Source: Defluviitalea phaphyphila (GTDB taxonomy: Bacteria; Bacillota; Clostridia; Lachnospirales; Defluviitaleaceae). From it: a stretch of 64,000 nucleotides of DNA. The notes under the pieces were generated by a model, which was not told the origin of the DNA, made no database searches, and worked only from the letters and a program-made list of their open reading frames with translations. The stretch is from contig NZ_JWID01000004.1 in NCBI RefSeq assembly GCF_001466305.1, positions 94,099 to 158,098 of the forward strand, written 5' to 3'. The translations under genes and the position numbers were made by a program. Below are positions 5,987 through 35,820 of the stretch, in pieces. The first letter of the stretch is position 1, and every line of letters begins with the position of its first letter.

Positions 5987-6022
5987 AAAAAAGCAATGAG
6001 CCCACGCTCATTGCTTTTTTTA
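5987..6022. terminator. Rho-independent terminator, bidirectional
   Basis: Perfect 14-bp inverted repeat: aaaaaagcaatgag, a 6-base loop cccacg, and ctcattgctttttt. T-runs on both strands suit termination from either side. It lies directly at the 3' end of the Rpn-like gene remnant on the minus strand. Confidence 0.85.
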
Positions 6023-11512: not shown

Positions 11513-12676
11513 TTACATGGAACCTCTACGATATCGATGAATCCATTTTTTTATTAATTGTTTTATGGAAAATTTATATTCTTTTTTATTTCCTTCTTCT
11601 TTTTGAATTTTTGCTAATTCAAGCTTTGCCTCATCATTTTCATCATCTATCCTAAAGGCTTTGTATATTGCTTCATAAGCTTTTTCAAAATTTTTATCTT
11701 TTCTATAAAACCTAGCTAAAGCAATCCATGCATATATGTACTTTGGGTTTTTTTCAATACTTTTTTTAATATATTCAAAAATTAAATTTTTCTTTTCTAA
11801 TATTTCATAAAGTTTTGCATATTCTAACCAAAATACTTCGTTTCTAGAAGACGCAGGAATTTTATCTAAACATTCTTTTGCTTTATCATATTCTTTTTTT
11901 CTTACATAAAATTTTGCTAAACTAATATAGCTTTTAAAATCGTCACCTTTATCTATAGCTCTTTTATAAGATTCCACTGCTTCTTCTTCCATACCTTTAT
12001 GATTATATAATTCTCCATAATAATACCAAATGGTTTTTGAATCTTCTATCATAGCTGCTTGATTTAAATATCTTCCTGCTTCTTCATAATTTTTTCTAAG
12101 CATATTTACTTCTACAAGATTTAAAAGAATTGGTATGTAATTTGGTTTTTTTTCATTAGCTTTAGTAAAAAAATATGTAGCATCTTCATATAAACCTAAT
12201 CTCATAAAAGCAACGCCCATATTATTATATATTTTTTCGTTTTCATCAAAAACTATGGCTTTTTTATACCATTTTAAGGCTTCTTCTGGTTTATTTTGCT
12301 TCATAAAATAATCTGCTTTTTCTTTGCATTTTTCCCATTCTGCTTTATTTTCCCATTTAAATATTTCTTTTCTAAGTAACTCTAATTCTGATTCATAAAA
12401 ATAGTCAATAAGTTTAAGAAAATTTATATACTGATCTGTTATAGAAGAATATTGGTCTTTTATTTTTACAATTTGTCCACTTATAGATATAAGCCCTAAC
12501 TCGTTTTTAATCCAATCTTCTAATTTACCCATTATAAAATCATCTATAGATTCTCTCCAATAATGATAACAATGATAATATAATTCTTCTAAGGAATATA
12601 CCTTTATTTTTGTAATGTAAAAATAGTATGGCCTCTCCACTTTTTCTGGAGAGACACTTAATATTAATGAGGACAT
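11513..12676 (-). CDS. TPR protein, last gene of the Hsp70-like operon
   Basis: A 387-residue soluble protein. Residues about 1-110 form a non-repeat helical domain of unknown type (SLEELYYHCYHYWRESIDDF). From about 115 to 350 there are six or seven tetratricopeptide repeats with the usual W/Y-A-F-P spacing, for example EEALKWYKKAIVFDENEKIY, MGVAFMRLGLYEDATYFF, EEAVESYKRAIDKGDDFK and EKAYEAIYKAFRIDDENDEA. TPR proteins are common Hsp70 co-factors. Its position 11 bp downstream of the Hsp70-VWA gene suggests it works as an adaptor for one or more of the operon's Hsp70-like proteins. I do not recognise the N-terminal domain. Confidence 0.85.
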   Translation of the reverse strand: MSSLILSVSPEKVERPYYFYITKIKVYSLEELYYHCYHYWRESIDDFIMGKLEDWIKNELGLISISGQIVKIKDQYSSITDQYINFLKLIDYFYESELELLRKEIFKWENKAEWEKCKEKADYFMKQNKPEEALKWYKKAIVFDENEKIYNNMGVAFMRLGLYEDATYFFTKANEKKPNYIPILLNLVEVNMLRKNYEEAGRYLNQAAMIEDSKTIWYYYGELYNHKGMEEEAVESYKRAIDKGDDFKSYISLAKFYVRKKEYDKAKECLDKIPASSRNEVFWLEYAKLYEILEKKNLIFEYIKKSIEKNPKYIYAWIALARFYRKDKNFEKAYEAIYKAFRIDDENDEAKLELAKIQKEEGNKKEYKFSIKQLIKKWIHRYRRGSM

Positions 12677-12687
12677 AGTTTCACCTC

Positions 12688-14763
12688 TTATAATCGAACT
12701 AATTCTGCAATTCTTAAAGCAATGTTATCTAATATATCTGTAAATTTTTCTTGTAAATCATAATATTTTCCGTCTGGTTTTGTTAAAGGGTCATAGCTTT
12801 CTATACTTGTTTTATCTTTTCTTGCTACAACGTAAGTTGTAATATTATTTTCCCTTAACATAGCTGATATTTCAGCTACATATTTACCACTTTCTGTAGG
12901 AACATGAGGAGGAGCATCTGTAATGAGTATAAATATATTTTTACCCTTTTTATCTACTTTAGAAGTTTTAAGTAATTCTATACCTGTTTCTATAGCATCT
13001 AAAGATGATTCAGGAATATCTCCTCCATAGGTTCTTGGAATATTTTTAACTTGTCTTTGAAACTTTTCTACTTCATTAGTAAAGTTATATACACTAGGTT
13101 TTTCTCTTTCTCTTAAATCTCCAAAACCAATAAGTCCTAATTGGAATCCTATTCCTTTACTTTTTAATATATTAGAAAATTCTATAGCTCTATTTTTTAC
13201 CCCATTAATATAACTATCCATACTTCCTGTTGTATCTATTATAAATACTATATTCATATTTTCAGTTTTTTTAGCTGCGTCTTTTTTGGGAGGAGGTAAA
13301 ACTTTAGTTCTATCAAATTCTGCTCTTTCTGTTTTCCCTGTAGATAAATCTTTTACAAATACCTCAAATAGATTATTTTTATCTAAAGCATAGGTTATTT
13401 CTAATTGAGTAGTGCCAGATAATCCTTCTAGCATAACACTTCCTATATATTTCCTATCTTCTTCATGGTCTTGCTCCCATTGATATACGTCTACTTGTAC
13501 AGAAGAAGCTCCTGACATACTAGCAAAATTATTATCTGATATTTTGATTGGTATAGGACTTCCCATAGGTATAATTGGAATTAATTTCTTTTCCATAGTT
13601 CCAAGATTAACCACTGCTTCTGTTCCAAAAATTTGACGAGTAATTTGTCCTACTTTTACATTGCTATTTGGCAGATGAATAAGATAGTTATAAATAGCTG
13701 CACCCATAGCTACACTTTTAGCAGGGTCAGTTGCACGATAAGGCTCTTTTATATATCCTGCCACCATACGTTTTACCATGGGAATAAGGGTTGAACCACC
13801 TACTAAAATAACCTTTGATATTTCATCTGGTTCTTTTCCTGCTCTTTTTAAGGCTTCTTCTATTATTTCACGGCTTCTATCTATATATTTTCTAATAAGT
13901 GCTTCAAAATCTTCTCTTTTTAATTCCATTACTAAATTTTTAGGTACTCCTTCATAAATTAATAAAGGATGAATTCTAATAGCTACCTTATTAGTTCCAG
14001 AAAGTTTCTTTTTTGCTTGTTCTGCTTCTTGTTTTAATTTTTGGAGTACTCTCTTTTTTTCTGTTGTTTCTAAATTATCCAAATTTATTCCTGTTTCTTT
14101 ATAAAACTGTTCTTTCATAAGTTTTATTAATTCGCTATCAAAATCATCTCCTCCAAGATTCATATCTCCTACATCAGATAGTTCTTGGAATATTTCTTGT
14201 CCATTTTCATCTTGGGATACTTTTAGCACACAAGCGTCAAAGGTTCCACCACCCAAGTCATATACTAACAGGGTTTGAGCATATCCTTGACGATATCCAT
14301 ACTCTATAGCAGCTGCTAAAGGTTCTGATAAAAGATGAACATTTTTAAATCCTGCTAATTCTCCTGCTTTTTTAGTTGCGAATATTTGTCTATCATTAAA
14401 ATAAGCTGGATGGGTTATTACTACTTCATCAAAAATTTCTCCTGCTTGATTTTCTGCAGATTTTTTTATTTTTTTTAGAATTTCTGAGCTTATTTCCTCT
14501 GGTGTCTTTTCCATATTCCCTATTTTTATTTTTTCAGTTTTTCCCATAAGTCTTTTAACTGAAATTATTGTTGTTTCAGGATATATAATAGCTCCTGCTT
14601 TAGCTTCACTTCCTACTATTACTCCTTCTTCTCCATAATTTACAACAGAAGGAAGTACTTCATCTACTCCATCTATTTTTACTACTTGAGTAGTATCTGT
14701 TTTATCATCATATATAATCCCTACTGAATTAGTAGTTCCTAAGTCTATCCCTAGATAACTCAT
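12688..14763 (-). CDS. Hsp70-type chaperone fused to a C-terminal VWA domain
   Basis: A 691-residue fusion. Residues 1-360 are a complete Hsp70 ATPase domain: phosphate-1 loop GIDLGTTNS at 5-13, phosphate-2 loop YDLGGGTFDACVL near 167, and adenosine motif VILVGGSTLIPMVKRM near 315. About 380-490 looks like a short beta-type substrate-binding domain (KYIGSVMLEGLSGTTQLEIT, then DKNNLFEVFVKDLSTGK). The alpha lid is absent. In its place, after a PPPKKD linker, is a von Willebrand A domain from residue 503 with a MIDAS motif DTTGS at 510-514, GDIPESS near 581 and ITDAPP near 614. The start overlaps the stop of the upstream Hsp70 gene (ATGA). Hsp70-VWA fusion suggests metal-dependent binding to a protein partner. 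The partner is unknown. Confidence 0.88.
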   Translation of the reverse strand: MSYLGIDLGTTNSVGIIYDDKTDTTQVVKIDGVDEVLPSVVNYGEEGVIVGSEAKAGAIIYPETTIISVKRLMGKTEKIKIGNMEKTPEEISSEILKKIKKSAENQAGEIFDEVVITHPAYFNDRQIFATKKAGELAGFKNVHLLSEPLAAAIEYGYRQGYAQTLLVYDLGGGTFDACVLKVSQDENGQEIFQELSDVGDMNLGGDDFDSELIKLMKEQFYKETGINLDNLETTEKKRVLQKLKQEAEQAKKKLSGTNKVAIRIHPLLIYEGVPKNLVMELKREDFEALIRKYIDRSREIIEEALKRAGKEPDEISKVILVGGSTLIPMVKRMVAGYIKEPYRATDPAKSVAMGAAIYNYLIHLPNSNVKVGQITRQIFGTEAVVNLGTMEKKLIPIIPMGSPIPIKISDNNFASMSGASSVQVDVYQWEQDHEEDRKYIGSVMLEGLSGTTQLEITYALDKNNLFEVFVKDLSTGKTERAEFDRTKVLPPPKKDAAKKTENMNIVFIIDTTGSMDSYINGVKNRAIEFSNILKSKGIGFQLGLIGFGDLREREKPSVYNFTNEVEKFQRQVKNIPRTYGGDIPESSLDAIETGIELLKTSKVDKKGKNIFILITDAPPHVPTESGKYVAEISAMLRENNITTYVVARKDKTSIESYDPLTKPDGKYYDLQEKFTDILDNIALRIAELVRL

Positions 14764-16400
14764 TTTTCTCCCTCCAATACTGTTTTATCAAATCTACTTG
14801 GATCAAAACTTGCTTTAAAACCACTAGGAGGATACATATCTCCAAATCCTAAATCTTCTACCATTCCTTTTACCAATCCTCCTTCTTCTTCTACTCCAAG
14901 GGTTACTTTTAACTTAGTTTTCCCTGAAGGTCTTTTAGGTAAACCCTGTATTTTAACTTCTCCTATTAACTTACAATTTTCTATGGTATCTTCTTTATCA
15001 ATTCGTTCTAATATTTTTAATTCTAAAGTTGTCATATCTTCTGGATTCTTGCCACTTAAGATAAAAATATGACTTTTTTTAGCTAAGGAATAAGGTGTTC
15101 CTCTTCTAATCATTGTAAAAAAGGATTTTCTATTTCCATGATTTACTTCTAATCCTATATCGTGAGGGACTGTTACTTCAAATTCTACTTCCATTTTTTC
15201 TGATTGTAAATCAGGATGAGTTAAAAGCCCCATTTTCATAGCAGCATAATAAGTAGCTCCTAAGGAAATGTCTAAAGCTGGCCTTTCTGATACATATATT
15301 TTATTTTCATCATTAAAAATTCCTATTAACATATCTTTAACCCAAGGCATTTGAGAAGAGCCTCCTTCTAGAAGGACTCTATCTATATCATCCGGAAGTA
15401 GAGCACCTATATAAGCTTCTCTTAAAGACTTTAATACTAGTTTTCTAGTTTTTTCTATAAAATCATGGATTAAATCTTCAAATTGATCTCTATTTATCTG
15501 CTCTACAAATGGAGGAATGCAAAAAGTAAAAGGTATTCTAAAACTTTTTACCCCTGATAATCTTTCTTTTGTTTCCCTAGCCCTTATAGCAAGTTCTGCT
15601 TGATTTTCTAAAGTCATATCTTCCTTTTTTTGATTTATTTTATTTTCAATAAATTTATAACATTGTTCTAATATTACTTCATCAACATTGTCTCCACCAT
15701 GATAAGCTTCTCCACCTTCACTAATTACTTGAAGTTTTATATGATAATCATCTTTTTCAACTACATGGAATAAAGTAATATCTAAAGTTCCTCCACCAAA
15801 ATCAAATACCATAATTTTTTCATCTTCAGATAATTGATGTCTAAAGTTATATGCTAGAGCTGCTGCTTTAGGCTCTTCTATTAAACAAATTAATTTATCT
15901 TTTAATCCTGCTAATTCACAAGCTTTCATAGTAGCTTTTTTGGCAGCATCATCAAAATCATATGGAACCGATACAACACATCCAGCTATTTCTGCATTTG
16001 GATTCATATTTTCACAATGCTTTACTAATTCTTTTAATATCATAGCTGATATCTCTTCTGGTAAATATTCTTTATCTGCAATTTTTATTTTTTCATTAGT
16101 TCCCATTTTTCTTTTAATTGAACGAATAGTGGTATCTGGATATATTTTCATGGATCTATAGGCTTCTTCTCCTATAACCCATTCTCCTTCTCCCTCTTCT
16201 TCTTTTCTATATTGAACTACGGAAGGAAGTGGAATTTTACCAAATCCATTGCTTATATCTATTGCTTCTGGCTTTTTATTATTATTATCCCAATAACTTA
16301 TAACAGAATTAGTAGTTCCTAAATCTATACCTAATATATACCATTCTTCTGGAACTTTTTTTGTTTCTTCTATTTCTTTTTTATATTCTTCCCAGTTCAT
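14760..16400 (-). CDS. Hsp70-family protein with intact ATPase motifs
   Basis: A 546-residue Hsp70-like protein with an unusual 20-residue N-terminal extension (MNWEEYKKEIEETKKVPEEW) before the ATPase domain. Nucleotide-binding motifs are intact: ILGIDLGTTNSVISYW near 23-38, IMVFDFGGGTLDITLF near 203, and VLLEGGSSQMPWVKDM near 345. The C-terminal part (about 400-546) resembles a reduced beta-sandwich (IGEVKIQGLPKRPSGKTKLK) and ends GFGDMYPPSGFKASFD; there is no DnaK-type lid or linker of the DVLLLD type. It is clearly paralogous to the downstream-numbered gene at 16440-18011, which shares the extension and the GFG..(y/f)P.SGF tail but has degraded motifs. The two adjacent genes may form an active/inactive pair. 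Confidence 0.88.
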   Translation of the reverse strand: MNWEEYKKEIEETKKVPEEWYILGIDLGTTNSVISYWDNNNKKPEAIDISNGFGKIPLPSVVQYRKEEEGEGEWVIGEEAYRSMKIYPDTTIRSIKRKMGTNEKIKIADKEYLPEEISAMILKELVKHCENMNPNAEIAGCVVSVPYDFDDAAKKATMKACELAGLKDKLICLIEEPKAAALAYNFRHQLSEDEKIMVFDFGGGTLDITLFHVVEKDDYHIKLQVISEGGEAYHGGDNVDEVILEQCYKFIENKINQKKEDMTLENQAELAIRARETKERLSGVKSFRIPFTFCIPPFVEQINRDQFEDLIHDFIEKTRKLVLKSLREAYIGALLPDDIDRVLLEGGSSQMPWVKDMLIGIFNDENKIYVSERPALDISLGATYYAAMKMGLLTHPDLQSEKMEVEFEVTVPHDIGLEVNHGNRKSFFTMIRRGTPYSLAKKSHIFILSGKNPEDMTTLELKILERIDKEDTIENCKLIGEVKIQGLPKRPSGKTKLKVTLGVEEEGGLVKGMVEDLGFGDMYPPSGFKASFDPSRFDKTVLEGEK

Positions 16401-16439
16401 TGAATCACTCCTTATATGTAAAAAACACTTAAAATATTT

Positions 16440-18011
16440 TTATACTGGAATAACAAATTTTTCTGAAAATCCTGAAGAAGGAAAAATTTCTCCAAAACCA
16501 CAATCGCTTATAGTAGCTTCTATAGTATTATAATTCTTAAAGTTTATTAAAAATTTAAGACGTATTGTCCTAGAAGGTCTATGGGGTAAGTTTTTTAAAG
16601 TTATTGTATGAATTTCCTTTAAATCTCCTTTATCATTTCTTTTATAAAGGGGTATTTCTAATATATTATTTTCTTTTAAATTTAAAATAAATATTTTAGG
16701 TTTTGGAATCTCCCACCAAAATGTATTTTTTTCAATCAAAGGTATAAAACTATTTTCTTTTTTAAAAATTGCTTTAATCCCTATATCTATATTTAACTTT
16801 TGTTTATCTATTAGATGTATTTCTTTTTCTTTTATAATTCCTAAATAAGAAGCGGCCCCTATACAAGCTCCTAAAGATATAATTCCCTCTGTTTGTTTAG
16901 GATAAATAACTTCTATTCCCTCAAACTCTTTTTCAAATAATTCTTTTACCCAATTCATTTCAAATCCGCCACCAGCAACTATGACTTTATTAACTTCTTT
17001 TTTTGATATAGGACCATAAATAGTTTTATCTAAAAGATTGTTAATAAATTTTTTTATCTCTTTTTTAAAAGGAGATATTAACTTATTCATATCTTCTATA
17101 GATATAATTTTCTGGAAAGCAGGATAAGCAAAATTAAAATATAATTTTGTAGGATTTTTTTTATAATAATTTTGAAATAATAAATTTTTATTTTGATAAA
17201 CAAAGGTTTCTATCTGATTTAATATATCCTCTGTAATATTATCCTTAAGAATTTTAGTTTCTTCACAATAAAAATTAATAAATAACTCTTTTAGTAGTTT
17301 ATCTATATTATTTAATCCTAAAGTTTTATTAAATAAAAAAGATAAATTTTCCCCTTTAAAATTTGATTCATTTTGAGGTTTTATCTTAATTAATCCTCCT
17401 CTTATTTCCTCTCCACCATAATCAACATATAAGACCTTTTCTTCTTCTATTAAATTTTTTTCAAAATATAAATATCTTAATATACATTCTCTATAACTCA
17501 TAAAAGTAATTAATGCTTTATCTAATCCTGCCATAAAAAATGCTCTTTTTAATTCTTCCTTTGCAGCGTCAGAAAAATAGTCTGGTATAGCAACTACAAT
17601 TCCAACTACTTCTCCATTTGGATTTATATTTTTACACATTTCTATTATTTCTTTAATATATCTACTTAAAATACTAGGAATATTAATAGGTTTTCCATTA
17701 ATATCAATAAGTTCTTTTGTTCCTAATTTTGATAATATATTATAAATAGTAATATCATTAAAATATCCCTTATTAAAAAAAGCATATTCTCCATAAACCC
17801 ATTCTTTATTCTCTGGTATATATTGTATAACTGTTGGAATAGAAGGGCTACCATATCCACCACTCATATCAATTAATTCAGGGAGTTTTCTATTAACATT
17901 CCAAAAAGCTATTTTAGTTGATTTTGTCCCCATATCTATTCCTAATATAAATTTTGTTTCATCATTAAAATCTAAAGAAGATATTTCTTTTTTGAAAATT
18001 TTCCAACTCAT
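16440..18011 (-). CDS. Hsp70-like protein with degenerate nucleotide-binding motifs
   Basis: A 523-residue paralogue of the protein at 14760-16400, alignable from the N-terminus (MSWKIFKKEISSLDFNDETK) to the tail (GFGEIFPSSGFSEKF). The ATPase signatures are eroded: GIDMGTKSTKIAFW instead of GTTNS, VLYVDYGGEEIRGGLI instead of DFGGGTFD, and VIVAGGGFEMNWVKEL instead of GGSSQMP. The phosphate-2 aspartate-threonine pair is lost, so ATP hydrolysis is doubtful. The reading frame is intact and its ribosome site and spacing are normal, so this is probably a maintained pseudo-chaperone rather than a dying gene. It lies 16 bp downstream of the GrpE-like coiled-coil gene. Its role could be scaffolding or regulating the active paralogue, which is an inference. 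Confidence 0.85.
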   Translation of the reverse strand: MSWKIFKKEISSLDFNDETKFILGIDMGTKSTKIAFWNVNRKLPELIDMSGGYGSPSIPTVIQYIPENKEWVYGEYAFFNKGYFNDITIYNILSKLGTKELIDINGKPINIPSILSRYIKEIIEMCKNINPNGEVVGIVVAIPDYFSDAAKEELKRAFFMAGLDKALITFMSYRECILRYLYFEKNLIEEEKVLYVDYGGEEIRGGLIKIKPQNESNFKGENLSFLFNKTLGLNNIDKLLKELFINFYCEETKILKDNITEDILNQIETFVYQNKNLLFQNYYKKNPTKLYFNFAYPAFQKIISIEDMNKLISPFKKEIKKFINNLLDKTIYGPISKKEVNKVIVAGGGFEMNWVKELFEKEFEGIEVIYPKQTEGIISLGACIGAASYLGIIKEKEIHLIDKQKLNIDIGIKAIFKKENSFIPLIEKNTFWWEIPKPKIFILNLKENNILEIPLYKRNDKGDLKEIHTITLKNLPHRPSRTIRLKFLINFKNYNTIEATISDCGFGEIFPSSGFSEKFVIPV

Positions 18012-18027
18012 TTATATTTCATCCTCA

Positions 18028-19920
18028 CTATTTCCCTGCTATAACATTAGCTTTTAGCACTATTTGTTTATTGTATAAATATCCTCTATTCATTGTTTTT
18101 ATAATTTCGCCTTTTTTAAATCCTTCTCTAATTTCTGCCATTAATACTTCATGTTCTTTCCCATTAAATTTTTCATGGGGAGTTGGATTAATAAACTCTA
18201 TTTTATAAAACTTAAGCACTTCTTCTATAGATTCTGTTAAATTGTCTATATCTTTTACATATTCTAATACAATCTCTTCCTTTTCTTCTCTTAGTTTAGA
18301 AACAGAATAATGAAGTATTTCTTCATAAGTGCTTATCTCAAACAATAAATGTTCTTTTAAAAATTTAATAATATTTTTATCTACTTCTTGCTTTATTTTT
18401 TCATGTTGTTTAATTAACTTTTCATTAAAATCTTTAATCTCTTGTTCTAATAATTCATTTAAATAATTTGTTTCAGTTTCTGATAATCCTTTATTTATAA
18501 AATTCCCATGAGATTCTTCTATTAAATATGATTTTTTTACAAAAGTTTTCAGATCTTTTTTAATGTTATTTAAAAATCCCTCTATATGTTCCTTAAATAA
18601 CTCTATGCTTTCTTTAAGACTTTCAATTTTTATATTTATTGTTTGAGAAATCCCTTCAATTATAGGACTATAATTAGTGTTTAACTGTAATTTTTCTTTA
18701 TTATTATACTTTTTATCAAAATCTAAAAATAAATTTAATATTTTTTCAGACATCTCTATATTATTTTTTATCTGTTTAGTCACGTTATTTTCTATAAATT
18801 CTTTATTAATTTTATCCCAGTATTTTATTCCTTCTTTTTTAAAAACTTCCCATTTATCATTAAATTCTTCATATAATTCATAAAAATTTAATAATTTTTC
18901 ATCATTTAAGCCTATTTTTTTTCTTACTTTAACATCATTAATATAGGCTTCCATCCCATTTTTATTAATATATTGTTGAAACTCTTCATAATTATATAAT
19001 TTTATTTTACTAGATTGATTTTCTGCTTCTTTAAAGAAACTTTCTAACTCTTCTATTTCTTTTCCTAAATGCTGATAAGCTTCTCTTATTGTATGAAGTA
19101 TTTTTTGTATAATCTCTTCTTCTGCACGTTTATAAGCTTCTTCTTTGATTTCCTCTTCTAAAGCATTAACCTGAATTTTAATAATAGCTTCTATATTTTC
19201 TTTTTCTTGCTTTATAGATTCATAATAAAAATTTGCAGCTTTCCTTAAATGAAAATCATTTAACTTTTCTATTCCTTTTTTAGACTTATCTATATAACAT
19301 TTATATAATTCTTCTTTTACATCTTCAATTAATAAAGTATATATGTATTTTATAAATTTATAATAATCATCTTTATTTTTTGATATTTCTGTTATATTTT
19401 TTCTATTTTCTATAATAATTTTATTAATTTTTTTCTTTTCCCATCTGCTTTCAATATTATCTAATTCATCTAATATACTTATTTTTTGTTCTGTTATAAA
19501 TTTATCTTTTTCTATTTTTATAGGATTTTCAACAGATTTGCCTTCACTTATTCCTTCATTTAATCTTTGATTTTCTCTAAATTGTTTTAATTGAGCTGCT
19601 AATACAATACATATCCCATCTAATATTTCTTTTGCTTTCCCCGTTTTGATATTTTTCTTGTTTTTATTAAATAAATCTATTGTTATCTGATAATATTTTG
19701 TTAATTCGTCAAAATACTCAAATATCTTTTCATCATATATAGAAAGCTTATTTTCTTCACTAAGATGATGAAGAATTTTAAGCATTACTTTCATCTTTAA
19801 ATGAAAAAAACAATTTTTTATAGTTTCTCTACTAAATTTGTCAAAAGCCTGAAGGACGTTTCTCCAGGCTTTAATCAGTTCATTAGATTTTATCAAAAGA
19901 GGGGGGTAATCTTTTAACAT
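18028..19920 (-). CDS. Large coiled-coil protein with GrpE-like C-terminus
   Basis: A 630-residue, highly charged, mostly helical protein with long predicted coiled coils between about 90 and 560 and no membrane segment. The last 70 residues differ and resemble the GrpE beta domain, the wing that docks on the Hsp70 nucleotide-binding lobe. NPTPHEKFNGKEHEVLMAEI, then a turn and KGEIIKTMNRGYLYNKQIVL and KANVIAG, parallel the GrpE pattern 'fdP..HeAv......pgtV..v.q.GY.l.gr.lRpA.V.V'. Encoded between two Hsp70-like genes (17 and 16 bp gaps), it may be a dedicated nucleotide-exchange factor or holder of this system. The GrpE resemblance is by eye and applies only to the C-terminal end; the rest is unrecognised. 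Confidence 0.7.
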   Translation of the reverse strand: MLKDYPPLLIKSNELIKAWRNVLQAFDKFSRETIKNCFFHLKMKVMLKILHHLSEENKLSIYDEKIFEYFDELTKYYQITIDLFNKNKKNIKTGKAKEILDGICIVLAAQLKQFRENQRLNEGISEGKSVENPIKIEKDKFITEQKISILDELDNIESRWEKKKINKIIIENRKNITEISKNKDDYYKFIKYIYTLLIEDVKEELYKCYIDKSKKGIEKLNDFHLRKAANFYYESIKQEKENIEAIIKIQVNALEEEIKEEAYKRAEEEIIQKILHTIREAYQHLGKEIEELESFFKEAENQSSKIKLYNYEEFQQYINKNGMEAYINDVKVRKKIGLNDEKLLNFYELYEEFNDKWEVFKKEGIKYWDKINKEFIENNVTKQIKNNIEMSEKILNLFLDFDKKYNNKEKLQLNTNYSPIIEGISQTINIKIESLKESIELFKEHIEGFLNNIKKDLKTFVKKSYLIEESHGNFINKGLSETETNYLNELLEQEIKDFNEKLIKQHEKIKQEVDKNIIKFLKEHLLFEISTYEEILHYSVSKLREEKEEIVLEYVKDIDNLTESIEEVLKFYKIEFINPTPHEKFNGKEHEVLMAEIREGFKKGEIIKTMNRGYLYNKQIVLKANVIAGK

Positions 19921-19937
19921 ATAAATCCTCCTTTTGC

Positions 19938-21617
19938 CTAATATAAATCATCCACAGATAATTCCGTCTCTACTCCATCTGTACTCATACTTTTAGCTGT
20001 TACTTTAAGCATATTATCTTGACTTATATTAAAAATTACTTTTACTTTTTCTTCTCCTTTTGCTTTAGGAGGAATTCCTCTTAAGCTTGTTCCTGCTAGT
20101 CTTTTCATTCCCTCTTCTGTTACATATTGAACTTTTCCTTTTTCTTTTGAAGGTTTTGTATTTTCATATACAACTATTGCCATACTAGTTACATTGTCAA
20201 AATTTGTCATAAGTAATTCTTCTGCTTCTACTACTAATCCTTCCTTTGGAATATCCATACCACTCTTTACGATTTCCATAAATCTTCTTCCTGATATCTC
20301 AAGTCCTAAAGGATGAATTGTTTTTTCTTGAACTACTGGTCCTTTTACAGTGGGCATCATAATCATATTACAATAATAAGCTGCTCCTCTTGAAATGCTT
20401 AATGCAGGGCTTATCTTGGATTTAAAAGGTTCTTTATTAAATTTTTCTGTTATTTTTTCTCTAATTCTCGGAATAGAAGATGAACCTCCAACTAAAAATA
20501 TTTCATCTATTTCTTCTGCTTTTAAAGAAGCTGCTTTTAAGCATTCATCTATACACTCCATAGTTCTTTCAATTAAATCTTCTACGGATTTTCCTTCCAT
20601 TTTTTTAAATACTTCATCTGAATCTCCTAAAGGATTAACTCTTTTGTGGTTTAAAAATGCTTCTCTTGTGATTTCCATATTAATATTTATAATTTTAGGT
20701 TCTTGTATAAATGGAGCTAAGACAACCTTTGTCGATTTAGCTGAGGAAAGTCTTTCCTTTGCTTGATTAGCTACCTGTGCTAATCTTACTAAAGCTGTTT
20801 TTTTCTGTCTTTTTGAAACTCCATCATCCACATTAAAATCAAATAAATCAATTTCTTCATTGGTCATTTTTTTAAATTCTTCATAAATCATATCCATAAT
20901 AATTTTATCTATATCGTTTCCACCTAAATAGTTATCCCCATAAGTACTTAAAATAGAAATCTTAGGTTCATCATCTTCTGTAAGTTTTATATCTAATATA
21001 CAAGCATCAAAAGTTCCTCCACCAAAATCATAAACTAATACTTTTTTATTTTTTCTTTCATTTACTGCATAGGAAATAGCTGCTGCAGCTGGCTCTAATC
21101 TAAGATATATATTATCTTCATCAAATCCTGCTAGTTTTGCAGCTTCTTTTGTCATTTTCTTTTGTTTATCTGTAGAATTAGCTGGTACTGTTATTACACA
21201 TCCTGAAAATTCCCCAGCTATATTTAATTCTTCTTGAACATATTCATCTGCCTTTTGCTTTAAATATCCTAAGATTTCTCCCGCAATTTGTTCTGGAGTA
21301 AATTCATATTCCTTATCATCAACTGAAATTTTTATTTTTTCATCTCCTCCAAGAAAACGTTTTACAGATAAAACTGTACTTTGAGGATAAATTATAGCAG
21401 CTTCTTTTGCTTGTATTCCAAAAATTCTAGATAATTTATCAGGGTCTTCGGGGTCTGTTTCAAACTGTATAGCAGTAGGAAAAATATTACTTCCATCAAT
21501 AGGAATAGTATGTACTTCTCCTTCTTTAAAATCATACACGCTAACAACGGAATTAGTTGTCCCAAAATCAATTCCTAAAAATAAACCTCTTTCCACATCT
21601 AATCCTAAAGTTCCCAC
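19938..21617 (-). CDS. Hsp70-family chaperone lacking the lid domain
   Basis: A 559-residue Hsp70-type protein. Phosphate-1 loop LGIDFGTTNS at 14-23, phosphate-2 VYDFGGGTFDACILDI near 199, and adenosine motif IFLVGGSSSIPRIREKI near 353 are all intact, so ATP binding and hydrolysis are likely. The linker is replaced by a short HPLGLEIS segment, reminiscent of DnaK's 'TPLSLGIE'. A beta substrate-binding domain follows (LAGTSLRGIPPKAKGEEKVK, INISQDNMLKVTAKS-like), and then the protein stops (ELSVDDLY) where DnaK would begin its alpha lid. Compared with about 610-640 aa for DnaK it is short. It is the first Hsp70 of the eight-gene operon, 24 bp after the large helical-repeat gene. It is not the housekeeping dnaK: no grpE, dnaJ or hrcA neighbours and no CIRCE. 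Confidence 0.88.
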   Translation of the reverse strand: MGTLGLDVERGLFLGIDFGTTNSVVSVYDFKEGEVHTIPIDGSNIFPTAIQFETDPEDPDKLSRIFGIQAKEAAIIYPQSTVLSVKRFLGGDEKIKISVDDKEYEFTPEQIAGEILGYLKQKADEYVQEELNIAGEFSGCVITVPANSTDKQKKMTKEAAKLAGFDEDNIYLRLEPAAAAISYAVNERKNKKVLVYDFGGGTFDACILDIKLTEDDEPKISILSTYGDNYLGGNDIDKIIMDMIYEEFKKMTNEEIDLFDFNVDDGVSKRQKKTALVRLAQVANQAKERLSSAKSTKVVLAPFIQEPKIININMEITREAFLNHKRVNPLGDSDEVFKKMEGKSVEDLIERTMECIDECLKAASLKAEEIDEIFLVGGSSSIPRIREKITEKFNKEPFKSKISPALSISRGAAYYCNMIMMPTVKGPVVQEKTIHPLGLEISGRRFMEIVKSGMDIPKEGLVVEAEELLMTNFDNVTSMAIVVYENTKPSKEKGKVQYVTEEGMKRLAGTSLRGIPPKAKGEEKVKVIFNISQDNMLKVTAKSMSTDGVETELSVDDLY

Positions 21618-21641
21618 AAATATTCCTCCTTTTAGTTTTTA

Positions 21642-24317
21642 TCATATTAAATATCCTAAATTATTTGCGTTATTTTCATAAATTATATTTTCTAATTCTT
21701 CTTCTGCTTTTTTAAATTCTAAATCTTCAAAATAAATTATTGTATTATTTAACTTTTCATATAGTTTTTGAGGAGAAGTTTTTATATTCTTCCCTTTATT
21801 TGTATAGATTTTAACTTCTGTAAGTTCATAATTACCTTCTTTATCTATTTCTTCAATATAATATTCCATACTCTCATTATAAAATAAAGTTATACAAGTA
21901 GCATATAAATTAAAAGCCACATGATACATTCTTTTTTTAATTAGAGGAAAACCTGATATTTTATAGCAAAAATTAACTTCTTTTTTCTCTGTTGTATAAT
22001 GTATAAATGGAATATTCTCCTCTATATACGAAAAATAAGGGAATTTGTCTTGCTTTTCTTTAATAATTGGTAAAATAAATTGATTTTTTTTCATCCATGA
22101 AAAGATAGGGTATATAATTTCTTTTTTATCCTTAACATCATTTGATAATTTTGAATAAACTTGTAGTAAAGCTGTTCCTAGTATCATATTTTTTGTTTTT
22201 TTAAATATGCTTTCTAATGGTTCTAAAGTTTTTTTATTAACTATTTTTTTATTTACTAAAATTTCATAACAACAATAAACTACAAACTTTTCTATAAGTG
22301 GAGAATTAGGTTCTTTTTCATAAAGACTTTGAAATACTTGCTCTAATTTTTCATCTAATCCATGAACCCATATGCCTTTTTCTAATATTTTTTTATCTAT
22401 ATAAAAAGTTGATTTTTCTAAAGAAATTACTATATCCCTTAATTTATACCAATCTTTTAAACTTCCTTCATAATTATTTATAACATAATTTAATATAAAT
22501 ATATCATATTTTCCATTTAAAAGTAATTCATAACTTTTATTTATAATAAAAAAGTCTTTTATTTCTAAACTAATAGACTTTTTAACTAATTCAAAACATA
22601 TATCATTTTCAATTTTAGGTAATTTTTTAGCCCATGCTATAGCTAAATTAATTTCATTAATTTTAATAAAAGACCTTATTCCCTCTTGTATTTGTAATAT
22701 ATTTAAATTATTTGGATTTAAAGATTTAAAATAAAGGGCTGCCTTTTCTAGATTAGCGCTCCTAATAAATAAGCTTCCTAAAGCAGTAGAAGCCCTTATT
22801 CTAAATTCATTAGATATAATATTATTTTCTAAACATTCTAAAATAATTTTTTCAACTTTCTTATATATATTAGATATGCTTTTATTTTGTTCTATTTCAT
22901 ATATAAAATGTTTTGTAAGCATTATAAGAAGATTAGGATTCTTATATCCTTCATCATAATATTGTAATAAAATTTCTATTGGAATTTCTTTTATTAATTT
23001 TTTTACTATGATATATTCCTTAGAATAAATTTTTTTTTGCCTATTTCCTAAGCAAAGAATAGTTAAATCTGACTCTTTAGAAGAAGCCGCTTCTATATAT
23101 AAAGTATTACCAGTAACTGTATATGTAGTCATATTTTCTTTTTCATTTTCCATAACCCAAATATACTTAATAAATGGAGAATTAATACTTATTTCATATA
23201 AAAACAAATGATCAAAAACTACTTGTTTGAACAAATAATTATTGGGATTTTTTTCAAGAAGTTTGAAATAAATATCTATGTAATATTTACCTTTTTTATT
23301 CTTTTTTAATGCATTTTCTCCAAAGTATAAAATTTTTTTATAATTTATTTTAAAAAGAACTTTATATTGTTCATTAGTACATATAATTGAATAAATATAA
23401 GCTTTTAAATCTTCACTTAAATTTTCTTTTATTAATGCAGACTGTATAATAGATAAAGGAATATCATTTATGTTAAGATTTTTGGCAGTTTCTAAATAAT
23501 TTAAATATAAATTTTTTATAAAAAGTTGTCTTTTTATTGCGCTTTCATAAACTTTAAATGCTTCTTTATCTTTCTTATTTTGTTTTATACAAGCTTTACA
23601 TAATAGATTTAAAAGTTCATTTGTATCCCATTTATTATAAATATCTTTTATATATGATATAGGGATTTTTGTATTATCTTTAAATTGAAGCATCCAATTT
23701 GTAAATAAAAGCATACTTTCTTTATTTATAATTTTATATTTTATGGAATATATAAATATGTATTTAAGTACATCTTGCATAGAATAAAAATAAGAAGGAT
23801 TTAGAATAAAGATAGAATACATCTCTAAATATAAAAATGGACTTCTAAAACCATGTTTAAATGCTTCATAGTAGTATTTTATTTCATTTTTTTCATCTTC
23901 AAATAATTCTTTTTCTATTTTAGCCTTTAAAAAAAATAATATTCCTGCATTTTCTACTTTTAGACATTCATCAAAAACTCTAATACTACTTTGTATAAAT
24001 ATATGTCTTCCCGTATAATAATCTAATAATATTTTTAAATAATATAAAATCCCTAAAATTATTTTATCATTTTCTTTAAAATATTTTTTATATTGCAATA
24101 AAATTTTTATCATATTATTAGCTTTTTCATATCTTTCTAAATTAATATTTAATTGAATTCTAGCTAAGAAAACTTTTATATCCGTTGGGTCTTCTATATT
24201 AATTTTATCTAATAAATCTAAAGCTTTTATAAAATAATCTTTTCCTCTATTATTGTACTGCTGACCAATTAACCAATAGGATACGGCTTTTATTAAAGTT
24301 TTTTTGTATTCTATCAT
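21642..24317 (-). CDS. Large helical-repeat protein of unknown function (DUF5717-like?)
   Basis: An 891-residue protein if the ATG at 24317 is used. This start is chosen for its GAGGG site 7 bases upstream; an ATG at 24344 would overlap the previous gene by 14 bp and has no good site. The sequence is dominated by repeated amphipathic helices of TPR/HAT appearance (YFIKALDLLDKINIEDPTDI, ALYFKSLNPNNLNILQIQEG). The last ~130 residues are different (YKISGFPLIKKRMYHVAFNL, EEIDKEGNYELTEVKIYT) and may form a beta domain. From memory, large DUF5717 proteins accompany Hsp70-like clusters in Clostridia, and this and the preceding gene could be their split equivalents; I cannot verify that. No catalytic motif is visible. 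Confidence 0.7.
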   Translation of the reverse strand: MIEYKKTLIKAVSYWLIGQQYNNRGKDYFIKALDLLDKINIEDPTDIKVFLARIQLNINLERYEKANNMIKILLQYKKYFKENDKIILGILYYLKILLDYYTGRHIFIQSSIRVFDECLKVENAGILFFLKAKIEKELFEDEKNEIKYYYEAFKHGFRSPFLYLEMYSIFILNPSYFYSMQDVLKYIFIYSIKYKIINKESMLLFTNWMLQFKDNTKIPISYIKDIYNKWDTNELLNLLCKACIKQNKKDKEAFKVYESAIKRQLFIKNLYLNYLETAKNLNINDIPLSIIQSALIKENLSEDLKAYIYSIICTNEQYKVLFKINYKKILYFGENALKKNKKGKYYIDIYFKLLEKNPNNYLFKQVVFDHLFLYEISINSPFIKYIWVMENEKENMTTYTVTGNTLYIEAASSKESDLTILCLGNRQKKIYSKEYIIVKKLIKEIPIEILLQYYDEGYKNPNLLIMLTKHFIYEIEQNKSISNIYKKVEKIILECLENNIISNEFRIRASTALGSLFIRSANLEKAALYFKSLNPNNLNILQIQEGIRSFIKINEINLAIAWAKKLPKIENDICFELVKKSISLEIKDFFIINKSYELLLNGKYDIFILNYVINNYEGSLKDWYKLRDIVISLEKSTFYIDKKILEKGIWVHGLDEKLEQVFQSLYEKEPNSPLIEKFVVYCCYEILVNKKIVNKKTLEPLESIFKKTKNMILGTALLQVYSKLSNDVKDKKEIIYPIFSWMKKNQFILPIIKEKQDKFPYFSYIEENIPFIHYTTEKKEVNFCYKISGFPLIKKRMYHVAFNLYATCITLFYNESMEYYIEEIDKEGNYELTEVKIYTNKGKNIKTSPQKLYEKLNNTIIYFEDLEFKKAEEELENIIYENNANNLGYLI

Positions 24318-24330
24318 TTTATTTCCCTCA

Positions 24331-25497
24331 CTAGCTAATTGCATTAACTTTTATGATATAGTTTTCTTTAAACTTATATTTTTTAGTATTAATACTTATT
24401 GTAAGCATTAATTCATAATATGGTTTTTTCCCTAAAATTCTCATATTCCAATTCTTTAAATAAATTATAAAAGGTATCTCTGCTTTTTTAGATATTAAAT
24501 ATCTTTTAGCTTCAAATTTTATAAATTTTTCTCTAGGAATTATTTTTACCTTAGCATCTTCTCCACTTCTATTTTTGATAATTAATGTTCCACTGTCTCT
24601 TTTATTATATATTTTTTTTGAAAAACTAATCTCAAAAATATCTTCTTTTTTTGCATAAATTTTATAAGGAATTTTTTCATCTTCGCATACAATATAAATA
24701 TATCCTACACTTTTTTGAGAGGGTATTTTATTCTTTAAAATTTTATAATAAACTATTAATTGATTCTTTATAAAATCTTCACTAGTAAAATGAGTTTTAT
24801 AAAAATTAACCCACTCTAGATTATTTTCTATATTAAATTCTACAAAGCCCCATCCTTTTTTTTGTATTATAATTTCTGTATTAAAATTATTGTCTAAATT
24901 AATAACTTCTATAATTGCCTTTTCTTTATAACCTGTTAATCTTAAAAAATATTCTAATGCCCAATCTCTATTAGTAGAAGTTAAAATAAGTTTATTATAT
25001 AATTTTTCCCATGATAATTTTTTATATTGTTCAAGCCATATATAAAATTTAGGCGAAAAAAATATTTCTTTTGCCATATCCCAATTTTCTTTAGCTAATT
25101 TAGAAAAATCTTCTAATGTAGATATACTATCTTTTTCATTTAGTATTAATGTTGGTTCTTTAATATACATAAAAACTGAAACTTCTTCTTCTCCCCCATT
25201 AGATTCTATAAACCAGATATCTTCATATGTATTTCCCCATGCCATATCCTTAGTATCTATACGATATATTATAACTTGTTCATTTCCTACCCATTGACTT
25301 GGAATAAACTGAGTATATCCTTTTCTAGAAAAAATTCTACCTTTAAGTTCTCCTTTCCCTATATTTTTTAGCTTTATAGCTCCCGTGTACACACTAGAAT
25401 AAATAATTTCTATATTTATTTCTTTTTTAGAAACTGAAAGTATTGGAGGTCCATCAGTATATTCTTCTAATTTAATTTCATATCTATCATCTTCCAT
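24331..25497 (-). CDS. Unknown beta-rich protein, first gene of the Hsp70-like operon
   Basis: A 388-residue soluble protein that I do not recognise with certainty. It contains two segments that look like tandem beta-sandwich modules: ILSVSKKEINIEIIYSSVYT with KLKNIGKGELKGRIFS at the start, and IFEISFSKKIYNKRDSGTLI with VNAIS at the end. The middle holds a helical, tryptophan-rich part (KFYIWLEQYKKLSWEKLYNK). The repeated phrase 'g.l.lkN.g......ki' is like the Ig-like/ASH modules that recognise unfolded or surface ligands. It may be the N-terminal part of a DUF5717-type protein split from the next gene. There is a GGAGGG ribosome site and a promoter-like sequence at 25531-25560, making it the operon's first gene. 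Confidence 0.65.
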   Translation of the reverse strand: MEDDRYEIKLEEYTDGPPILSVSKKEINIEIIYSSVYTGAIKLKNIGKGELKGRIFSRKGYTQFIPSQWVGNEQVIIYRIDTKDMAWGNTYEDIWFIESNGGEEEVSVFMYIKEPTLILNEKDSISTLEDFSKLAKENWDMAKEIFFSPKFYIWLEQYKKLSWEKLYNKLILTSTNRDWALEYFLRLTGYKEKAIIEVINLDNNFNTEIIIQKKGWGFVEFNIENNLEWVNFYKTHFTSEDFIKNQLIVYYKILKNKIPSQKSVGYIYIVCEDEKIPYKIYAKKEDIFEISFSKKIYNKRDSGTLIIKNRSGEDAKVKIIPREKFIKFEAKRYLISKKAEIPFIIYLKNWNMRILGKKPYYELMLTISINTKKYKFKENYIIKVNAIS

Positions 25498-25660: not shown

Positions 25661-26842
25661 TTATTTCATATAATTAATTTTCCCCATAACCATAACCATT
25701 TCAATATTTATATTTTTATCAAATATTAATAAATCAGCATCTTTATTGGGAGCAATGGAACCTTTATTTTTGTCTATATTAAGTAATTTTGCAGGAGTTA
25801 AAGACATCATTTTTACTACTTCATATAAAGGTGCTGGGGTTAATTCATAAAAAGTTTTAACAAGTCTATCAGTAGTTGCTACACTACCTGCAAAAGCACT
25901 TCTATCCATTAACTTTGCTACATTATCTTCAACAATAACCTTCATTCCTTTTTCTTTACTACCTAATATATATTCTCCATCAGGCATTCCTGCTGCTCTC
26001 ATAGAATCTGTTACTAAACATATTCTATCTGAACCTTTTACCTTATATATAAGCTGAAGTAATTCCTTTGGTAAATGCTTTCCATCAGCAATTACTTCAA
26101 CATATAAATCATCTAGTAAATATCCAGCTTCTACTGCTCCTGCTACTCTATAAGCATTTTTACGTGTTACAGTAGACATGGCAGAATAGAAATGGGTTAA
26201 TGCAGATAAGCCATTTTCATAAGCTCTGATTACTTCTTCACAGGTTGCATCGGAATGAGCTAAGGAACTAATTATATTATGTTCTCTTAATGTATTTAAA
26301 AACTCCCTAGACCCTTCTAACTCTACTGCAAAGGACCATCTAATAATTCTATCTGTTGCATTTAATACTTCTTCATATTCACTTTTATCTGGATTTCTTA
26401 AATATTTAGGGTCTTGTGCTCCTTTTTGGCTATATGCAAAATATGGCCCTTCTAAATGAAGTCCTAAAATATTAGGAAAGCCTTCTTTTTGTAAATCAAG
26501 TTGATTAAAAAGACTTACTACATGAAGCAAGGACTCTTTCGTACTTGTAATAGTTGTAGGTACAATAGAAGTTGTCCCATGAAGCATGTGAGCTTTACAT
26601 GCTTGATAAATGCTATCTATATCTCCATCCATAAAATCCGCATTTCCTGCTCCATGAGTGTGAATATCAATAAATCCTGGAGATAAATATTTTCCTTCAA
26701 CATCTATTATTTCATCAGCTGAATCTTCTATTGTTTTATTAAATACTACTTTTTCAATATTTTTATCACAAACTAATACTTCTCCCTTTGTAATACCTGT
26801 AGGAGTAATAATATTGGCATTTTTAAATAATATTTTTTTCAT
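25661..26842 (-). CDS. nagA: N-acetylglucosamine-6-phosphate deacetylase
   Basis: A 393-residue amidohydrolase that converts GlcNAc-6-phosphate to glucosamine-6-phosphate and acetate. Signatures: LSPGFIDIHTHGAGNADFMDG (metal-binding HxH), LGLHLEGPYFAYSQKGAQDP (catalytic-site Glu), SSLAHSDATCEEVIRAYENG, LTHFYSAM, and the C-terminal catalytic LVTDSMRAAGMPDGEY. The segment normally reading 'HLFNAM' is HFYSAM, common in Gram-positive enzymes. Last gene of the operon, 1 bp after the SIS gene. Its product feeds the deaminase encoded at 32465-33220. Specificity for GalNAc-6-phosphate (AgaA-like) cannot be excluded. Confidence 0.92.
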   Translation of the reverse strand: MKKILFKNANIITPTGITKGEVLVCDKNIEKVVFNKTIEDSADEIIDVEGKYLSPGFIDIHTHGAGNADFMDGDIDSIYQACKAHMLHGTTSIVPTTITSTKESLLHVVSLFNQLDLQKEGFPNILGLHLEGPYFAYSQKGAQDPKYLRNPDKSEYEEVLNATDRIIRWSFAVELEGSREFLNTLREHNIISSLAHSDATCEEVIRAYENGLSALTHFYSAMSTVTRKNAYRVAGAVEAGYLLDDLYVEVIADGKHLPKELLQLIYKVKGSDRICLVTDSMRAAGMPDGEYILGSKEKGMKVIVEDNVAKLMDRSAFAGSVATTDRLVKTFYELTPAPLYEVVKMMSLTPAKLLNIDKNKGSIAPNKDADLLIFDKNINIEMVMVMGKINYMK

Positions 26843-26843
26843 A

Positions 26844-27614
26844 TCACAACATCCTTATCTTATCTCTAAATCTGTGCATAAACTTATTATTCCACTCATC
26901 TCCACCAGGAGCATTTCCACTCATCCAAACTGGTGGTTTTATTCCTTCATCTACCATAATATTAATAGCTTCAATTACTACGCAATTTAATACATATGCA
27001 TTAGCAAAAGTACTTAATGCTCCTATCTTTTGTTCAAAATCAGGCAATTTTATTACAGCGTCTCCTACTTTAACTTTACAGTCTATGGTATAATCAACTA
27101 TTTCATGTAAATTTTTCTTTGAAGGATGACGAGCCACATGGTCTTTAGGACAATTATTGGCATGTTCATGAGAGCTAATTCCTATTACTGTTGCTCCATT
27201 TTCTTTTGCTTGTAACGCTGCATCAATTGTTGCAGAGTTAATACCATATGCATTTGCAACAATAAATAAATCTCCTTCTCCTATATTATAATCGTTTACT
27301 ACTATTCTTCCATATCCTGGCAATCTCTCTGTTTGCATGGATTTTAATGCTCCAACACTTAACATAGTGTCTGTATTTAAAATTGCGTTAACATGCATAA
27401 GTCCACCTGCACGGAAAAATATTTCCATTGCAGCAAGATTAGAGTGTCCTCCAGGTCCCCAAATATAGAGTAATTTATCTTGTTTTACGTGATTTGCAAC
27501 TACTTTAGCTACTTCAATAATTCTTTCCTTTTCATTTTCATGAATATCAGTAATAATACCTATTACTTCTTTATAATAAGCGTCCATTACTAATCCTGAT
27601 TTCATTTTATTCAC
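26844..27614 (-). CDS. SIS-domain phosphosugar-binding protein
   Basis: A 256-residue protein resembling the UPF0309 SIS family. The sugar-phosphate-binding fold is indicated by LLYIWGPGGHSNLAAMEIFF, DLFIVANAYGINSATIDAAL and ATVIGISSHEHANNCP; the middle one has the typical 'G.N..t.d' after a strand, in place of the S-x-S of isomerases. Conserved C-terminal ALSTFANAYVLNCVVIEAIN. The gene overlaps the upstream hydrolase-like gene by 8 bp and precedes nagA by 1 bp. Its likely role is isomerising or sensing an amino-sugar phosphate in the same pathway. The exact reaction is not known for this family. Confidence 0.8.
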   Translation of the reverse strand: MNKMKSGLVMDAYYKEVIGIITDIHENEKERIIEVAKVVANHVKQDKLLYIWGPGGHSNLAAMEIFFRAGGLMHVNAILNTDTMLSVGALKSMQTERLPGYGRIVVNDYNIGEGDLFIVANAYGINSATIDAALQAKENGATVIGISSHEHANNCPKDHVARHPSKKNLHEIVDYTIDCKVKVGDAVIKLPDFEQKIGALSTFANAYVLNCVVIEAINIMVDEGIKPPVWMSGNAPGGDEWNNKFMHRFRDKIRML

Positions 27615-28860: not shown

Positions 28861-28869
28861 ATTTTCCCC

Positions 28870-30114: not shown

Positions 30115-30135
30115 CAGTTCTTTCTTTATATTTTC

Positions 30136-31638: not shown

Positions 31639-31650
31639 AAAAATACCCCC

Positions 31651-32442: not shown

Positions 32443-32464
32443 CTAGACTCCCCCAATATATTAT

Positions 32465-33220: not shown

Positions 33221-33224
33221 TGTA

Positions 33225-34719: not shown

Positions 34720-35820
34720 ATGGAAAAATCGAAACATTATTTACATGGTGGAGATCTTGAAGCTATAGAAACCTTTTATAAAATTCCTAGAAATGAAATT
34801 ATTGATTTTAGTTCTAATGTAAATCCTTTAGGAATCTCTCCGAAAGCTAAAAAAGAATTAGCTAAAAATTTAGATTTAATCTCCACATATCCAGATAGAA
34901 AATACACAAAACTTCGTCAAAAACTTTCTATATATACAGGTGCTGATTTTGAATCTATATTGGTAGGCAATGGTTCAACAGAACTTATCTCCCTTTTTAT
35001 TAATCTAATTCATCCTAAAAAAGCTTTAATCATAGGACCTACTTATTCAGAATATGAAAGGGAAGTTATTTTAAATGGGGGACATATAGAGTATTACCCT
35101 TTAAAAGAAGAGCTAAACTTTGAAATTGATATTAATAATTTTAAAAAAAGCTTAACTGAAGATATAGACCTTTTAATTTTATGTAATCCTAATAATCCTA
35201 CTAGCTCTGCTATATCTAGAACTAATCTTGAAGAAATTTTATCATATTGTAAAAATAAAAATATCTTTGTTATGATTGATGAAACATATATAGAGTTTGC
35301 TAAAAATATGGACAATATAAGTTCTGTACCTTTGATAAAATATTTTGATAATATTATTATTCTTAGAGGAATTTCTAAATTTTTCTCTGCTCCTGGGCTT
35401 CGTTTTGGATATGGCTTGTGTGGTAATATGGATTTAGTAAATAAAATAAATGAAATTAAAAATCCTTGGACTATAAATATATTAGCTTCCTTTGGAGCTG
35501 AAATTATGCTAGAAGATATGGAATATATAGAAGCTACAAAAAAACTTATAAATTCTGAAAGAGATAAAATATATAATTCTCTTAAAAATTTAAAAAATAT
35601 TAAAGTATATAAACCTACTGCAAATTTCATTTTATTTAAACTACTTAGAAATGATATTACTTCATCAGATATATTTGAAAAATTAATTAAACAAAAAATG
35701 CTTATAAGAGATGCCAGTAGCTTTCCTTTCTTAGATTCTAGATATATGAGATTTTGCTTTTTACTACCAGAACAAAATCAAAGACTTATAAATTCTCTTA
35801 AGGAAATTATAGAAGATTAA
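34720..35820 (+). CDS. PLP-dependent aminotransferase fold protein (CobD/HisC-like)
   Basis: A 366-residue fold-type-I PLP enzyme. The N-terminus (LHGGDLEAIETFYKIPRNEI, DFSSNVNPLGIS) matches threonine-phosphate decarboxylase (CobD) better than histidinol-phosphate aminotransferase. CobD proteins begin 'HGG....(a)...g.....iDFSaNiNPlG'. Also seen are ILVGNGSTELI, LLILCNPNNPTS, IDETYIEF, the PLP-lysine region ILRGISKFFSAPGLRFGYG and the C-terminal phosphate-binding RYMRFCFL. CobD makes the aminopropanol linker of cobalamin, but no cobalamin gene is nearby, so the assignment stays open. It has an AGAGGAGA ribosome site and is the only rightward gene in this part. Confidence 0.75.
   Translation: MEKSKHYLHGGDLEAIETFYKIPRNEIIDFSSNVNPLGISPKAKKELAKNLDLISTYPDRKYTKLRQKLSIYTGADFESILVGNGSTELISLFINLIHPKKALIIGPTYSEYEREVILNGGHIEYYPLKEELNFEIDINNFKKSLTEDIDLLILCNPNNPTSSAISRTNLEEILSYCKNKNIFVMIDETYIEFAKNMDNISSVPLIKYFDNIIILRGISKFFSAPGLRFGYGLCGNMDLVNKINEIKNPWTINILASFGAEIMLEDMEYIEATKKLINSERDKIYNSLKNLKNIKVYKPTANFILFKLLRNDITSSDIFEKLIKQKMLIRDASSFPFLDSRYMRFCFLLPEQNQRLINSLKEIIED

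Follow-up and report, generated by a model that had tools for sequence, protein, structure and literature searches.

J-proteins have been described as obligatory cochaperones of Hsp70 (PMC7289447). The contacts that the J-domain makes on Hsp70 are documented (PMC8215388), and R167 and D393 of Hsp70 have a role in J-docking (PMC7289447). Specialised Hsp70s such as HscA and HscC, which serve few clients, use J-proteins of their own and no GrpE, and the membrane is the presumed site of HscC action (PMC8215388). Among published systems, the parts list closest to that of the locus described here belongs to the HSP70-GrpE theme in the GAP1-N2 GTPase-centric systems (Kaur et al., 2020, eLife; PMC7159879), which unites an HSP70 and GrpE with a second HSP70-like protein and a beta-sandwich/TPR protein. 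The operon analysed below resembles this theme in its parts. A functional account of its DUF5716 and DUF5717 families was not found in the open-access papers searched, of which a single off-topic one mentions either name, nor was a published description of the operon, so that its designation as an undescribed system stands provisionally.

Gene Organization and Genomic Setting

The window, that is, the whole 64,000-nt stretch of DNA that was analysed, lies on contig C34 of a 2.54 Mb genome that is 100% complete. Its positions 11513-25497 hold eight ORFs, all on the minus strand (Table 1). The tight spacing noted in the sequence-only reading is present in the ORF list, where neighbouring genes are 11-39 bp apart or overlap by 4-14 bp, and all eight are preceded by a Shine-Dalgarno-like sequence. 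In order of transcription they encode the N-terminal and C-terminal halves of DUF5717, Hsp70a, a coiled-coil protein with a GrpE domain, DUF5716, Hsp70b, an Hsp70-VWA fusion, and a TPR protein. Pfam assigns to these products three Hsp70 domains, VWA, GrpE, TPR, and DUF5716, a degenerate Hsp70; in a simple hydropathy scan all eight were free of strong transmembrane segments. A promoter scan gave results no better than shuffled sequences, and neither it nor a terminator scan was informative. The earlier observation that neither a J-protein nor CIRCE accompanies these genes agrees with scans in which no CIRCE was found in the window and the J-domain motif HPD occurred once. This sole HPD, which sits within Hsp70b, was considered as a sign of a hidden J-domain and rejected as a chance occurrence.

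Table 1. Features of the operon and its former left border (window coordinates)
Feature	Position	Strand	Evidence
DUF5717 N-terminal half, 388 aa	24331..25497	-	PF18984 positions 13-304; AF2 pLDDT 90.7; Foldseek
DUF5717 C-terminal half, ~891 aa from likely start	21642..24317	-	PF18984 positions 323-851, PF18983; AF2 pLDDT 89.6; ribosome-binding site
Hsp70a, 559 aa, GTG start	19938..21617	-	PF00012; ATPase residues intact; SBD-beta without a lid
Long coiled-coil protein with C-terminal GrpE domain, 630 aa	18028..19920	-	PF01025, PDB 4ani match
DUF5716 pseudo-Hsp70, 523 aa	16440..18011	-	PF18980 and weak PF00012
Hsp70b, 546 aa, no lid, DUF5716-like C-terminus	14760..16400	-	Intact ATPase residues; Pfam
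Hsp70-VWA fusion, 691 aa	12688..14763	-	PF00012 and PF00092; intact ATPase residues, MIDAS (DTTGSM)
TPR protein, 387 aa, conserved unnamed N-terminal domain of ~110 aa	11513..12676	-	Pfam TPR
Aminotransferase, old left border, not an operon component	34720..35820	+	617 bits to flanking-aminotransferase profile

In relatives the aminotransferase gene directly flanks the operon in divergent orientation; in the window ~9 kb of sugar genes separate the two. This intervening stretch (25661-34283) carries genes for an amidohydrolase, a SIS protein, ceramidase-like and GlcNAc epimerase-like proteins, a sodium-solute symporter, a glucosamine-6-P isomerase-like protein, and LacI. Elsewhere in the window are a fragment-like PD-(D/E)XK transposase (6020-6532; profile positions 73-202 of 229), a SpoIIE-type phosphatase gene that overlaps an iron-only hydrogenase/PAS gene (46763-49647), and a gene for an AlwI-family restriction endonuclease (61955-63844).

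DUF5717, a Predicted Scaffold Protein Split in Two

The two large proteins that had been taken for separate unknown partners are instead the N- and C-terminal parts of one DUF5717 protein, because the PF18984 match runs on from the first ORF into the second (323-875), which PF18983 also matches, and because relatives carry DUF5717 as a single gene of ~1,180-1,330 aa. Fused frames of 1,332-1,335 codons occur in part of the window's own family. A sequencing error as the origin of the split was rejected, since split genes turn up across many families and a separate ribosome-binding site serves the second ORF. For this ORF the start at 24317 appears more likely than that at 24344, as only the former has a ribosome-binding site, and the two halves would then lie 13 bp apart.

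In AlphaFold2 models the N-terminal half, predicted to be cytosolic, has the domain order Ig, five-helix, Ig, Ig. The C-terminal half consists of two TPR-like solenoids with a beta domain between them and a C-terminal beta-sandwich, and its profile matches were to TPR designs and LapB. Foldseek placed central-pair/SPD-2-type Ig domains nearest to the N-terminal half and generic TPR/HAT scaffolds nearest to the C-terminal half, with low TM-scores in both cases. The eukaryotic names among these matches were not taken as homology, because the matches are of a generic Ig and TPR/HAT kind and score low. As modelled, DUF5717 is an Ig/TPR scaffold protein without transmembrane segments.

Three Lidless Hsp70s, a Dead Paralogue, and a GrpE Domain

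The count of four Hsp70-like proteins given in the sequence-only reading was right, although one of them, DUF5716, is a pseudo-ATPase. In the other three the residues D8, T11, K70, E171, D194, T199, and D201 are invariant wherever they are aligned (Hsp70a, n = 90; Hsp70b, n = 63; Hsp70-VWA, n = 55), and the substrate-binding domain of Hsp70a has a mean column identity of 79% over 19 genomes. The alpha-helical lid (SBD-alpha) is absent from all three: Hsp70a and Hsp70b, already read as lidless from the letters, stop after SBD-beta, and Hsp70-VWA runs into its VWA domain. The LLLDV linker is likewise gone from all three, and the J-docking residues are replaced, T173 by A, K, or L, D393 by E, V, or Q, N170 by L, E, or S, and R167 by S/N or L in Hsp70a and Hsp70b (this column is gapped in the Hsp70-VWA alignment). 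The difference from the housekeeping chaperone, also pointed out earlier, is confirmed by a normal lidded DnaK encoded elsewhere in the genome, which retains R167, N170, T173, D393, and the LLLDV linker. The source genome has, besides, a second free-standing Hsp70 of 566 aa (C9:30324-31961) that keeps R167, T173, and D393. The loss of lid, linker, and J-docking residues would explain why DnaJ is missing, and we infer from these alignments that the three active Hsp70s are J-independent.

The same losses bear on the reading of the operon as a set of chaperones for general stress, in which a dnaK system would have expanded to refold damaged proteins. Hsp70 and GrpE do occur together here, and SBD-beta is strongly conserved. 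However, the lid, the linker, the J-docking residues, and CIRCE are all absent, and the f2 lineage (see below) retains only the parts that have no ATPase, which makes a stress function improbable.

DUF5716 is, judged by its residues, a dead Hsp70 kept for structure. K70, T199, and D201 are replaced across relatives, K70 mostly by L/I/V and D201 by R in 72 of 80 sequences, and the protein is still matched by PF00012 and PF18980 despite the loss of K70 and D201 nearly throughout. The GrpE-like tail that had been recognised on the coiled-coil protein is a real GrpE domain by all indications: PF01025 covers residues 480-627 (E 7e-11), the GrpE beta-wing is conserved in the alignment, and the PDB match is to the GrpE 4ani. 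The protein is a putative nucleotide exchange factor. In 51 of the 53 full-length relatives the VWA domain of the Hsp70-VWA fusion has an intact MIDAS; this motif is the one feature that points to a possible metal role.

Distribution and Gene Order

All eight genomes examined from the window's family carry DUF5717, as do 228 of 392 across the order (Lachnospirales). In class- and phylum-wide samples DUF5717 was confined to this order, except for one sub-threshold match. Gene neighbourhoods were collected from whole genomes and also from 80 named records, whose labels were Candidatus Epulonipiscium, Defluviitaleaceae, Petrocella, Vallitaleaceae, Eubacteriaceae, and uncultured Clostridia; they gave 85 unique Hsp70a loci. 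In none of these loci were the components permuted, and median intergenic gaps were 3-35 bp; the full set was found in 35. The genes are thus kept together in relatives, and the earlier idea of a conserved, self-contained operon gains support from the identical order in 75 of 75 loci with at least three components. Among Hsp70a-positive genomes, 60 of 61 also have DUF5717. The operon has come apart in some termite-gut MAGs, where only Hsp70a-GrpE-DUF5716 or Hsp70a alone remains at the locus.

This distribution also speaks to a spore-assembly machine, which had been among the functions first suggested. Judged by gene content, some carriers are spore formers, among them the source genome, which has SpoIVA. 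No association with SpoIVA was found, however (p 0.57 for DUF5717), and SpoIVA is missing from 21 of 75 DUF5717-positive and 13 of 61 Hsp70a-positive genomes; a role in spore assembly is hardly credible on these counts.

A Short Form in Family f2

A large sister family, f2 (probably Lachnospiraceae, a major gut family, to judge by its size within the order), has a short locus, DUF5717-DUF5716-TPR, from which active Hsp70 and GrpE are absent. None of the f2 genomes sampled for Hsp70a had it, and DUF5717 is near-universal, being present in 70 of 71 genomes (G693-G763). The core may thus be a basic, unstudied part of the cell biology of this family, given how few sampled genomes lack it. The long and short forms have in common the N-terminal domain of the TPR protein (residues 1-110), which is conserved, carries the motif YSLEEL...W I..ELGL, and has no Pfam match.

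In a tree of Hsp70 domains each active Hsp70 type forms one clade (100/98-100), and DUF5716 of the short form falls together with its long-form counterpart in family f90 (100/99). Because of this grouping the simplest reading derives the short form from the long one by reduction, with the caveat that DUF5716 branches are long and may distort the topology. The f90 long form itself looks eroded (L067:5142-12290, genome G400), with a GrpE protein of 279 aa and broken VWA70 and TPR frames; this could be decay or an error of the MAG.

Distribution and parts together bear on a third reading, that of a biological-conflict system, antiphage or for self/non-self recognition, in which ATP-driven Hsp70 would be the threshold switch, much as in the HSP70-GrpE theme of GAP1-N2. 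The parts are indeed similar: HSP70 and GrpE come with a further HSP70-like protein and with one of the beta-sandwich/TPR type (PMC7159879). The operon has no gene for GAP1, a GTPase, tubulin, or an effector, however, and no GTPase was seen among 40 window proteins scanned. PADLOC returned only weak partial matches, for example between ZorA and the coiled coil and between PDC-M61B and Hsp70. Vertical descent at a single syntenic locus and near-universality in f2 are, moreover, unlike a patchy defence island. Such a system has a slim chance of being the right reading, and defence, like spore assembly, is disfavoured.

CTM and the Link to Flagella

The TPR gene is often directly followed, in long and short forms alike, by a gene for CTM, a family of ~400-aa proteins built of a coiled coil, a hydrophobic hairpin of two transmembrane segments, and a second coiled coil; in 11 loci the two genes overlap by a median of 19 bp. 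No Pfam or NCBIfam family was found among the CTM members tested, and a profile search gave only coiled-coil noise. In the source genome CTM lies beside valS on the same contig, ~139 kb from the operon (C34:258702-259790; L189:11685-12899). It also persists beside valS in several lineages that have lost the whole operon (L199, L201, L203), and membership of CTM is therefore not obligatory. Since these lineages of clean operon loss keep the order aminotransferase-CTM-valS, the ancestral layout was probably aminotransferase - operon - CTM - valS. In family f98 (L200:3852-11000) CTM lies, unlike elsewhere, within a few kb of dnaK- and grpE-like genes, which were recognised by matches to the VWA70 and GrpE profiles.

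CTM is nearly confined to flagellated genomes. Of the 95 CTM-positive genomes in the order sample, 92 have FlhA (Fisher p 2e-20, ignoring phylogeny), and the three exceptions are MAGs that are 73-86% complete. Among 80 near-complete DUF5717-positive f2 genomes all 41 with CTM have FlhA, and all 32 without FlhA lack CTM, again ignoring phylogeny. Matched losses of CTM and FlhA are found within genera g8 and g346. Seven f2 genomes have FlhA and no CTM (G564, G633, G651, G669, G717, G733, G736). Their FlhA reaches at most 847.7 bits, and the minimum in CTM-positive genomes is 862 bits, above all seven; this suggests a distinct flagellar type without CTM.

These data could indicate a dedicated chaperone for flagellar assembly or placement, in which the Hsp70s and the scaffold would prepare or position flagellar parts and CTM would be the membrane receptor. 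The co-occurrence of CTM and FlhA, the matched losses, and the overlap of CTM with the TPR gene would all fit, as would FlhA in 55 of 61 Hsp70a-positive genomes, the other six being MAGs that are 73-94% complete. Against this, DUF5717 is retained in the 32 f2 carriers without FlhA, which argues that the DUF5717 core is not strictly flagellar. Family f4, furthermore, is FlhA-positive, yet CTM is missing from nine of its genomes that were sampled, and the family does not figure among those with DUF5717. Nor were flagellar genes seen next to the operon in the window. A dedicated flagellar chaperone thus seems unlikely.

A Model for the Complex

A broader model, which we put forward tentatively and at just under an even chance, is an Hsp70 complex, independent of J-proteins and driven by GrpE, that sits on an Ig/TPR scaffold, has few clients, and acts at the envelope or membrane, where it would remodel or position envelope machinery, with the flagellum among its outputs. 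The eight gene products would form one multi-protein complex. Instead of waiting for a J-protein, the Hsp70s would be bound to the DUF5717/TPR scaffold, with the built-in GrpE driving their cycle, and would serve as an ATP-driven switch for the assembly or remodelling of few dedicated clients. DUF5716 might be a fixed subunit in a position like that of Hsp70b, and the VWA domain might provide a metal-dependent grip on the client or on the scaffold. Less certain is an action at the inner face of the membrane, which would be exerted through CTM. One output might be to place, assemble, or control the flagellum, as CTM often follows the TPR gene and is so closely tied to flagellated genomes; other outputs would continue in genomes that lack flagella. 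The f2 lineage would have lost the ATP-driven part and retained the DUF5717-DUF5716-TPR scaffold. The step from the complex to a flagellar or envelope function is the weakest of the model. Of the surface role proposed in the sequence-only reading, an envelope function is favoured only indirectly, via CTM as a membrane protein tied to flagella.

Comparison with Known Systems

The operon shares with the DnaK-DnaJ-GrpE system the catalytic residues of the nucleotide-binding domain and the beta-wing domain of GrpE. It differs in the absence of the lid, the LLLDV linker, the J-docking residues, and a DnaJ gene, and in having several Hsp70 paralogues in one operon. Service to few clients and a possible site at the membrane would recall HscA and HscC; the operon has a GrpE, however, and its Hsp70s have lost the J-docking site, whereas HscA and HscC depend on dedicated J-proteins and not on GrpE. 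If three Hsp70s with ATPase and GrpE function although the J-docking site is lost in every sequence examined, this would show that Hsp70 can be driven in another way.

The scaffold and the pseudo-Hsp70 are members of the Pfam families PF18980, PF18983, and PF18984. The DUF5716 and DUF5717 entries give no function, do not describe a dead Hsp70, and make no tie to active Hsp70s.

The likeness to the GAP1-N2 systems extends from HSP70 with GrpE, the second HSP70-like protein, and the beta-sandwich/TPR protein to the suspected action near the membrane (PMC7159879). The beta-sandwich part is represented here by Ig-like domains, whose homology to FNIII is at most putative. The operon has no GAP1, TRAFAC GTPase, DnaJ fusion, or effector, and neither a GAP1 protein nor a TRAFAC GTPase was found among its eight proteins and 30 further proteins of the window. 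As the defining GAP1 and GTPase are absent, the operon is not classed as a GAP1-N2 member. It is further set apart by three active Hsp70s with SBD-beta, the VWA fusion, the pseudo-Hsp70, and vertical, order-wide inheritance. It is conceivable, though we lean towards doubt, that the operon represents a new class of ATP-driven envelope machine, which would combine J-independent Hsp70s with an Ig/TPR scaffold, GrpE, and a pseudo-Hsp70, would connect to flagella via CTM, and would later have been reduced to its scaffold in f2.
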